NCBI RefSeq assembly: GCF_007556585.1
Contig: NZ_VJNA01000003.1
Location: 1-64,000, forward strand
DNA from: Tepidimonas aquatica
Lineage (GTDB): Bacteria > Pseudomonadota > Gammaproteobacteria > Burkholderiales > Burkholderiaceae_C
Direction of reading: 5' to 3'
DNA: 64,000 nt
Shown: piece by piece, positions 35,907-40,090 of the stretch
Position numbering within the stretch: the stretch's first letter is position 1
Layout: every line of letters begins with the position of its first letter
Notes under the pieces: model-generated
Seen by the model: the letters and a program-made list of their open reading frames with translations, nothing else
Told to the model about the DNA's origin: nothing
Database searches by the model: none
Position numbers and translations under genes: made by a program

Positions 35907-37544
<1,638 letters not shown>

Positions 37545-37706
37545 GGTCTCCGACTCCTCAACAGGTGGATGGCGGGGCGCTTCGGGGTGGCCCCGTACTT
37601 CCGCTAAGCTTACGACGATGGCAAACCGTACCGGCGCTGTCAAGCTGGTGAACCCGTCCCTGCAAGGCCCCCATTTGTCGCTCACCCGACACTCCCGCAC
37701 CCCGTC

Positions 37707-38987
37707 ATGACGCTCGACCCCCGCCACCCCGTGCGCATCTTTTTGTCGCAGCAGCCGTGGTTTCACGACTTGGAGGCAACGACGCAGCACGAGCTGGTGC
37801 ACGCCATGCTGCTGCAGCGCGCGGCGCGTGGCGAGCTGCTGGTGCGCCGCGGCACCGAGGTCGTGGCCTGGTGGGCCGTGCTGGCCGGCATGGCCAAGCT
37901 GCAGACCGAGGGGCCGCATGGTCGCGTGTCGGCGTTTTTGGGCGTGCCGGCAGGCGAATGGTTTGGCGAAGGCACCGTGCTCAAGGGCAGCCCGTGGCGC
38001 TACGACGTCGTGGCCGTGCGCGACACCACGCTGGTGGGCATGCCGCTGGCCTGGTTTCGGCGCCTGCACGCCACCCATTTGCCGTTCAATCACTTTTTGA
38101 TCGAGCGGCTCAACGAGCGCCTGGGGCAGGCCATGACGACCATCGAAGCGGGCCGGCTGCGCACGCCGCAGGAGCGGGTGGCGCAAATTCTGCTGATGTT
38201 TTGCAGCGCCGGCGTGCCACGCATCACCCTGTCGCAGGAGGATCTGGGCCACCTGGCGGGGTTGTCACGCCAGACGATCAACCGGGTGCTCAAGCAGTTC
38301 GAAGCGCGCGGCTGGGTGACGCTCGATTTCAACCGGGTGGAGGTGTGTTGCAGCGCCTCGCTGCACGCGCTACTGCCTCAATTCGGCCGCGCTGCGCTGG
38401 ACCGATGGCCACAACACCCCCACGGGTGGTGGCCCCGACGCATAATCGCCCCCATGCGTTGGTTGCTCGATTTCGCGCCGCTGGTGGCGTTCTTTGTCGC
38501 GTACCGCTGGGACGGCATTTACACCGCCACAGCGGTGTTGATGGCGGCCACCACCGTGCAAATGGCCATCATTTACGCGCTGGACCGCCGGCTGCAGGCG
38601 CTGCACAAGATCACGTTGGCGTTGATTTGGGTGTTCGGGGCGCTGACGCTGGCGCTGCACGACGAGCGCTTCATCAAATGGAAGCCCGCCGTGCTGTACG
38701 GGGCGCTGGCGCTGACGCTGGCGGCGGCCCTGTGGGGCTGGCGGCGTAACGTGCTGCAGCTGTTGCTGGGCAGCCAGCTGCCGCTGCCGTCCACCGTGTG
38801 GCACCGGCTGACGGTGGCCTGGATCGCCTACTGCGTGTTCATGGCCGTGCTCAACGGCGTCGTGGCCGCCTGGTGGTCCACCGACGCCTGGGTCGATTTC
38901 AAGCTCTGGGGCTATATCTTCCCGCTCGCCTTCATCGTCGGTCAGGGGCTGTATGTGGCCCGCCACCTCAAGGACGACACCGCATGA
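37707..38987 (+). CDS. Crp/Fnr-family regulator in one reading frame with YciB
   Basis: A single uninterrupted frame of 426 codons. Residues 1 to about 235 form a Crp/Fnr regulator: a cyclic-nucleotide-binding-like beta-roll (about 15-125), a dimerisation helix, and a helix-turn-helix in [20 protein letters not shown]. Residues 250-426 are complete YciB. The 24 or so residues between ([13 protein letters not shown] and nearby) look like translated intergenic DNA with no stop codon. The regulator most likely once ended near ALLPQFG. Whether a true fusion is made is unknown, because YciB has its own ATG and a CATAAT element just before it. It is divergent from the ligase-liv operon. Confidence 0.8.
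38454..38987 (+). CDS. yciB: Septation protein A / inner membrane-spanning protein YciB (internal start)
   Basis: Small polytopic inner-membrane protein linked to cell envelope and septum integrity. From the internal ATG at 38454 the product is 177 residues, beginning [20 protein letters not shown], the standard YciB start, with about five hydrophobic segments and [12 protein letters not shown] in the middle. It is in frame with the upstream Crp-family gene with no stop between. A CATAAT hexamer at 38441-38446 could be a -10 element for independent expression, although it lies only about 10 bp before the ATG. Its stop overlaps bolA by 4 bp. Confidence 0.88.
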
Positions 38988-39286
38988 CCCCCAGCACCCC
39001 CCGTAGCCAGCCCAGCGCCGAGCTGCTGGCTGCGCTGCTGCGCCAGCGCTTGCAGCCCCGGCAGCTCGAAGTGATCGACGAGAGCGCGGCCCACGCCGGC
39101 CACCTGGAAGCCAGCGCCAGCGGCCGTGGCACCCACTTTCGGGTGCGCATCGCCGCCGACGCGCTCGACGGGCTCAGCCGCGTGGCGGCCCATCGCCTTG
39201 TGTATGATGCGTTGCGCCCGGCGTTCGACGCCGGCGTGCATGCGCTGGCGCTGGAAATCGAGCGTTCGCCCACGCCCGCCGTGTGA
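38984..39286 (+). CDS. BolA family protein
   Basis: The 100-residue BolA/IbaG-like protein has the class-II KH-like fold seen in ESAASHAGH-type sequence (here [14 protein letters not shown] at about residues 29-42) and [12 protein letters not shown] near the C-terminus. Such proteins bind monothiol glutaredoxins and iron-sulfur clusters and influence stress and cell shape. The ATG overlaps the yciB stop (ATGA). The order yciB-bolA-ppiC is typical for Burkholderiales. Confidence 0.92.
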
Positions 39287-39313: not shown

Positions 39314-40090
39314 ATGAAACATACCCTTACCCGCGCGGTGCTGGCCGTGGCGCTGGCTGGTGCCGGCGCCGTCCACGCGCAAAACCTGGCCATCGTCAAC
39401 GGCAAGCCGGTGCCCAGTGCACGGCTCAAGGCCCTGGAGCAGCAAATCGCCCGTTCGGGCCGCCCGGTCGACGACCAGGTGCGCGCCCAGCTGAAAGAGG
39501 AAGCCATCCTGCGCGAAATCTTCATGCAGGAAGCCGAGCGCCGCGGCCTGCGCGCCTCGCCCGAGGTCAAGGCGCAGCTGGAGCTGGCCACGCAAACCGT
39601 GCTGATCCGCGAGCTGTTTGCCGACGAGCAGCGCCGCCACCCCATCACCGACGCCGAGCTGCGTGCCGAGTACGACCGCATCGCGCAGGCCATGGGCCAG
39701 GAATACCGCGCACGCCACATCCTGGTCGACAGCGAAGACGAAGCCAAAGCGGTGCTGGCCGAGCTGGCCAAAGGGGCCAAGTTCGAAGACCTCGCACGGC
39801 AGCGCTCCAAGGACAAAGGTTCGGGCGCCAACGGTGGCGACTTGGATTGGGCCACCCCCGACGTGTTCGTGCCTGAGTTCGGTCAGGCGATGGCGCAACT
39901 GGGCAAGGGTCAAACCACCTCCACCCCGGTCAAGACCCAGTTCGGCTGGCACATCATCCGGGTGGACGATGTGCGCAAAGCCCAGCTGCCCGACTTCGAA
40001 GCCGTCAAGCCGCAGCTGCAGCAGCAGCTGCAGCAGCAAAAGCTGGCCAAGTTCCAGGAAGAACTGCGCGCCAAAGCCAAGGTGCAGTGA
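39314..40090 (+). CDS. PpiC-type peptidyl-prolyl isomerase, periplasmic
   Basis: Folding factor for exported proteins. The 258-residue product has a signal peptide (about residues 1-22, ending VHA before QNLA), a helical SurA/PrsA-like N-terminal region, and a parvulin domain at about 130-225 with RARHILVDSEDEA, GGDLDWATPDVFVPEF and FGWHIIRVDDV. The C-terminus is glutamine- and lysine-rich and helical. It follows bolA by 27 bp and probably shares its transcript. It converges closely on the next gene with only a 6-bp gap. Confidence 0.93.
   Translation: MKHTLTRAVLAVALAGAGAVHAQNLAIVNGKPVPSARLKALEQQIARSGRPVDDQVRAQLKEEAILREIFMQEAERRGLRASPEVKAQLELATQTVLIRELFADEQRRHPITDAELRAEYDRIAQAMGQEYRARHILVDSEDEAKAVLAELAKGAKFEDLARQRSKDKGSGANGGDLDWATPDVFVPEFGQAMAQLGKGQTTSTPVKTQFGWHIIRVDDVRKAQLPDFEAVKPQLQQQLQQQKLAKFQEELRAKAKVQ

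Follow-up and report, generated by a model that had tools for sequence, protein, structure and literature searches.

Can a Crp/Fnr regulator and the membrane protein YciB share one open reading frame in Tepidimonas aquatica, and if so, how did that frame arise and what does it produce? The initial annotation of the window (the whole 64,000-nucleotide stretch of DNA analysed) had proposed that the two genes form a single stop-free frame of 426 residues. The frame was indeed uninterrupted from ATG 37707 to TGA 38985-38987 on the + strand, encoding a 48.4-kDa product. Pfam matches to this product were all over cut-off and covered cNMP_binding at residues 38-124, HTH_Crp_2 at residues 156-214 and IspA/YciB at residues 250-423, which bore out the proposal. 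In the Crp part, PF00027, PF13545 and PF00325 scored above cut-off, and it thus had both the sensor domain and the helix-turn-helix (HTH) of a Crp-type regulator. The regulator had been called complete, which held for these two domains but not for its C-terminus, where it fell 16 codons short of its T. ignava counterpart. YciB was complete and kept its own ATG, as proposed. It gave full-length family matches (PF04279, 192.6 bits; NCBIfam NF001325, septation protein A, 193.5 against a cut-off of 180), and M1 was nearly invariant (at least 90% in a 36-row alignment), making ATG 38454 credible as the start of YciB itself. The link between the two parts comprised 25 residues (225-249). The features are collected in Table 1.

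Table 1. Features of the crp-yciB locus and its neighbours (positions within the window)
Feature	Position	Strand	Remarks
ORF, Crp/Fnr regulator fused to YciB	37707..38987	+	426 aa
Crp/Fnr part	37707..38378	+	residues 1-224; sensor domain and HTH kept; without the last 16 codons of T. ignava
Deletion scar GCGCTACTGCCTCA	38367..38380	+	single repeat copy left; from comparison with T. ignava
msrB remnant, out of frame	38368..38445	+	codons 132-156 plus TAA, still legible; forms the link in the crp/yciB frame
CATAAT	38441..38446	+	includes the msrB stop; fits the recurrent NATAAT before yciB; probable leaderless -10
yciB (septation protein A family)	38454..38987	+	own ATG 38454; 177 aa, 20.1 kDa
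Palindrome TGTCG-N6-CGACA	37676..37691	+	conserved 5' of crp; probable autoregulatory operator
bolA	38984..39286	+	downstream; ATGA overlap with the yciB stop
PpiC-type peptidyl-prolyl isomerase gene	39314..40090	+	downstream
AMP-binding (acyl-CoA synthetase type) gene	35907..37544	-	divergent to crp

The origin of the frame became clear from a comparison with T. ignava, where the gene order is crp-msrB-yciB. There, crp has 240 codons and its TGA overlaps the msrB ATG, and msrB has 156 codons and ends 8 nt before the yciB start. The T. aquatica sequence aligned with T. ignava on either side of 451 missing bp with 93% and 91% identity, in agreement with the ANIb of 93.22% reported for the two species (PMC7386788). 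Missing in T. aquatica were the last 16 crp codons, the crp stop and msrB codons 1-131. In T. ignava the gap is flanked by 14-nt imperfect repeats, GCGCTGCTGCGTCA in crp and GCGCTACTGCCTCA in msrB, which are identical at 12 of 14 positions and lie 451 bp apart. The gap, the imperfect repeat and the msrB remnant identified the junction as a deletion and not as an insertion in the relatives. The lost crp tail belongs to a region that varies among relatives: in eight genomes, the crp product ranges from 226 to 262 aa. Both the deletion and the anatomy of the locus can be read from the DNA, and they point to a recent event in the lineage of T. aquatica: 451 bp would have been deleted between the short imperfect repeats of crp and msrB, taking out msrB and joining crp in frame with yciB.

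These results changed two parts of the initial view. The stop codon of the regulator was lost, as had been supposed, but it disappeared together with 451 bp that included most of msrB, and a local loss of the stop was rejected. The link had been taken for 24 residues of translated intergenic DNA. This was also rejected, as the sequence is the 3' end of msrB read out of frame.

The initial annotation had further suggested comparing the crp-yciB spacer in close relatives. Among 89 loci (9 found by place and 80 from a scan of the collection), crp was upstream of yciB in 23, or 19 after removal of four repeats on the same contig. The two genes were separate and msrB lay between them in all 19 distinct loci, with no fusion among them, and the split state is thus ancestral. 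An uninterrupted match spanning Crp and YciB was found in T. aquatica alone among 40 genomes, some of which did not have the two genes together. In T. charontis, T. thermarum and a third genome of the genus, G010, crp and msrB were much further apart (loci L039, L040 and L041). A gene for the SelO adenylyltransferase lay between them in G010, which suggests crp-selO-msrB-yciB as a possible ancestral operon.

The search for MsrB (PF01641) gave no match in the T. aquatica genome, whose assembly is 99.97% complete, while the domain was found once each in 9 of the 11 Tepidimonas genomes. The other genome where PF01641 was not found, G001, is 88% complete, and the crp-yciB locus was not found there either. 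When the T. ignava DNA across the gap was searched against the T. aquatica genome, it matched the remnant only. MsrA was found in all 11 genomes of the genus, T. aquatica included. With no PF01641 match and the remnant as the only trace, T. aquatica seems to have lost its sole MsrB.

An artefact of sequencing or assembly, in which the organism does carry msrB but the assembly of the reads dropped it, would give the same picture. The junction rests on one short-read draft of 2,672,904 bases in 97 contigs (MiSeq 2x300, SPAdes; PMC7386788), and the genome collections used include one genome per species. However, the junction is continuous and lies 37.7 kb into a 118.5-kb contig, and the deleted DNA and MsrB were both not found in the assembly, whereas MsrA was. 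The 14-nt shared repeat is also shorter than the word sizes of assemblers, which counts against such an error. We consider an artefact highly unlikely, and the fusion is very probably real and recent, born from a deletion that eliminated msrB.

An open frame across the junction could suggest that the fusion was selected. When 49,980 crp-msrB deletions were enumerated on the T. ignava sequence, 33% gave an open in-frame fusion. By itself, the open frame therefore says little about selection, which is unnecessary to explain the fusion. Compared to T. ignava, the crp part showed 12 synonymous and 4 nonsynonymous changes in 223 codons (dN/dS 0.11), and yciB showed 35 and 10, respectively, in 177 codons (dN/dS 0.08). 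The neighbouring bolA had 20 synonymous and 3 nonsynonymous differences. The low dN/dS indicates constraint in both halves that probably mostly predates the deletion, and the test has low power for the fusion itself because the time since the deletion is short.

Divergence between the two species was uneven around the locus. It was low over 37769-38566, with 95-99 matches per 100 columns, compared to 93 and 73 in the blocks just upstream and 89 just downstream. The dS values were 0.073 for crp, 0.32 for yciB and 0.35 for ppiC. Exchange of a tract between the two lineages would account for the low divergence and imply a young deletion.

What the fused frame produces depends on whether yciB has retained a start of its own. 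The initial annotation had singled out the CATAAT element in front of yciB, and this element does matter, as the yciB genes of many relatives have it at the same fixed distance and it is part of a genome-wide class of probable leaderless starts. NATAAT was present 6-8 nt before the yciB ATG in 44 of 98 distinct upstreams (drawn from 103 loci). In 19,600 mononucleotide shuffles, NATAAT was found 5-8 nt before the ATG 23 times. The element was absent at 6-8 nt in 54 of the 98 upstreams, Rhodoferax and Limnohabitans loci among them, and 53 of the 98 had no NATAAT ending within 20 nt of the ATG. For 80 loci of the collection we also scored msrB. NATAAT was present in 16 of the 18 loci in which the upstream 1 kb contained no msrB and in 20 of the 62 loci in which it did, and was missing in the remaining 42 of the 62. 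Thus, the element travels with yciB, and more so without a preceding msrB, as a promoter would, and yciB genes that have msrB just upstream and no NATAAT may be served by the operon alone. When 45 upstreams were aligned on the element (spacing 5-9), ATAAT was preceded by G, not T, in 37 and followed by C in 38, and no clear -35 motif was seen.

Another explanation of CATAAT, that it is just the stop of msrB, was dropped because of this recurrence before yciB, including in the 16 of 18 loci without a nearby msrB.

In T. aquatica the arrangement is CATAAT-N7-ATG, which is the distance of a leaderless-type -10. The pattern ATAAT-N6-8-ATG occurred once in the 64-kb window, at yciB, and 39 times in the T. 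aquatica genome, compared to one occurrence of the reversed pattern and seven when the spacing was set to 13-15. ATGs preceded by the element opened ORFs of at least 100 codons in 28 of the 30 inspected cases, compared to 198 of 508 further ATGs located on those strands. The 39 sites form a class of probable leaderless genes. One of them lies just before msrA (C1:152051), and in the loci of relatives the same ATAAT signal recurs before a gene with a product starting like MSLLPHQLELLAPAR. In Burkholderia cenocepacia, leaderless mRNAs have been reported whose genes have a TA-rich motif immediately before them (PMC4603805), and in Cupriavidus metallidurans leaderless mRNAs are reported to make up 4.67% of primary starts (PMC7563307); both reports concern the same order as T. 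aquatica. Based on the recurrence among orthologs, the genomic class and these precedents in Burkholderiales, CATAAT at 38441-38446 is the probable -10 of a leaderless yciB mRNA that would start at 38454. The deletion left 74 bp of msrB-side DNA before CATAAT. A normal 20-kDa YciB would then be made from a leaderless mRNA begun by an element that lies inside the ORF and was spared by the deletion.

A different outcome would be that the chimera is the only product and the cell has no YciB other than the C-terminal portion of this 48-kDa regulator, tethered to the membrane. No good Shine-Dalgarno sequence was found before yciB (the best was -2.3 kcal/mol, 16 nt away), which fits this outcome but discriminates poorly, since crp and ppiC do not have a good one either. 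Furthermore, any coupling of yciB to termination at msrB, across the 8-nt gap of T. ignava, is gone, so ribosomes coming from crp would read straight through. In contrast, the NATAAT element is intact and belongs to the class found before 39 ATGs of this genome. The YciB start is nearly invariant and lies directly at the first hydrophobic helix, and an N-terminal addition of 249 residues may clash with the topology of YciB. On balance, a chimera without free YciB is unlikely.

At the other end of the frame, the palindrome TGTCG-N6-CGACA was located 15 nt 5' of the crp ATG, with both arms exact in T. aquatica. With at most one mismatch and within 120 nt upstream, it was present at 19 of 20 crp genes, compared to 17 of 4,000 shuffled upstreams. 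The layout, 5-N6-5, resembles that of CRP. The palindrome is probably the regulator's own operator, for autoregulation. A regulon defined by the palindrome was dropped, because the genome-wide matches (4 in each of two genomes) were too few compared to the reversed control (0 and 2) and the site is not rare enough. Between crp and the divergent AMP-binding gene, a block, TAAGCTTACG, at 37605-37614 was identical in 9 of 9 aligned Tepidimonas crp upstreams and is possibly a second operator or a promoter element. The chimera would be translated from the crp start, behind a promoter that carries its own conserved operator.

Whether such a chimera could act on DNA depends on the orientation of YciB. 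The structure model of the whole fusion was weak overall (mean pLDDT 67.5, pTM 0.44), most so in the YciB half, for which the alignment had 3 rows. The N-terminal part had a Crp-type fold and secondary structure (block pLDDT 58-94), and the link region 233-252 was below pLDDT 50. The AlphaFold model of YciB alone was better (mean pLDDT 90.6, pTM 0.80) and showed helices at 2-44, 49-68, 71-95, 100-105, 113-140, 143-152 and 155-169. Summed over the segments, K+R were more numerous at the N-terminus, loops 2 and 4 and the C-terminus than in loops 1, 3 and 5 in 36 of 36 YciB rows, which favours a location of loops 2 and 4 and the C-terminus on the inside. The N-terminus itself was not separated by these counts (mean 1.00, compared to 0.97 in loop 1, over 36 rows), and nothing that settles the orientation was listed in the literature searched for YciB topology. 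Because the model shows 2-44 as one continuous helix, the N-terminus of YciB may be periplasmic. If helix 2-44 crosses the membrane once, the chimera would be misplaced; if it is broken and spans the membrane twice, the Crp part would lie in the cytoplasm and could have access to the DNA.

Alternatively, the chimera could be made but be a dead or degraded by-product, with the function of the regulator lost and leaderless YciB the only product that matters. Consistent with this, the fusion is unique to T. aquatica among the genomes and loci examined, and a periplasmic YciB N-terminus would be ill-suited to a folded Crp domain ahead of it. However, the Crp part has no stop or frameshift and retains its HTH match, the operator arms are exact and a Crp-type fold is predicted, and we regard a dead chimera as unlikely. 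The reading that we favour, and consider likely, is a recent 451-bp deletion that removed msrB and left two nested products in one frame, namely the chimera and a separate YciB. It assumes, from the sequence features described above, that the cell produces a stable chimera, that CATAAT serves as a -10 and that YciB is also made separately. The initial annotation had offered two outcomes, of which overlapping products in one frame is the better supported; the other, a membrane-tethered transcription factor, could possibly apply to the long product. That a working membrane-tethered Crp/Fnr chimera is combined with a nested leaderless promoter giving free YciB in the same frame seems quite unlikely.

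Fusion genes born by deletion are a known kind. In the preprint of Kaul et al. 2026 (PMC12803068), deletions of intervening DNA join parts of genes in frame, and the fusions described there share with Crp-YciB the loss of intervening DNA, the single new frame and an ancestral split state. In the mlaE-htpX fusion described in that preprint, too, the new frame includes a gene fragment read out of its own frame. The narX fusion retains three recognisable domains from three operon genes. Unlike mlaE-htpX and acrR-glcD, both described there as being without catalytic motifs, Crp-YciB keeps whole Pfam domains. Compared to the fusions presented in the preprint, it also combines unrelated functions, DNA binding and a membrane protein, and the start signal of the downstream gene survives inside. 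The particular feature of this locus is that a whole regulator is joined to a whole membrane protein with an internal start signal kept.

Crp-YciB resembles Crp/Fnr regulators in its sensor and HTH domains and in the palindrome beside its gene. These regulators are as a rule soluble and cytosolic, and Crp-YciB differs by the attached membrane protein; no membrane-bound Crp regulator was named among the literature matches listed. The order of an N-terminal DNA-binding domain followed by membrane segments is shared with membrane-tethered one-component regulators such as ToxR, CadC and VtrA. ToxR and CadC have an OmpR-type winged HTH and one transmembrane helix. VtrA, also with one transmembrane helix, is likewise described as having a winged HTH of OmpR type, whereas Crp-YciB combines both Crp domains in full with a polytopic membrane protein. 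On the membrane side, the full-length domain match and the conserved start and residues agree with YciB/septation protein A (IspA, IspZ), which is encoded by a separate gene in the relatives examined. We know of no sensor role for YciB. Long open frames were present upstream of yciB in four Hydrogenophaga loci, and these matched no Pfam family.

The locus presents a young fusion in a cultured hot-spring bacterium, with the ancestral parts, the breakpoints and the lost gene all legible. The deletion removed a gene for a repair enzyme, msrB, and the analysis points to a leaderless start signal that recurs before yciB genes of Comamonadaceae. The locus makes it possible to test directly if cells can cope with a regulator attached to a membrane protein, and if such a fusion is rendered harmless by an internal promoter that escaped the deletion. 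If the tethered chimera does work, one deletion would have yielded a Crp regulator of a new kind as well as a membrane protein with two isoforms.
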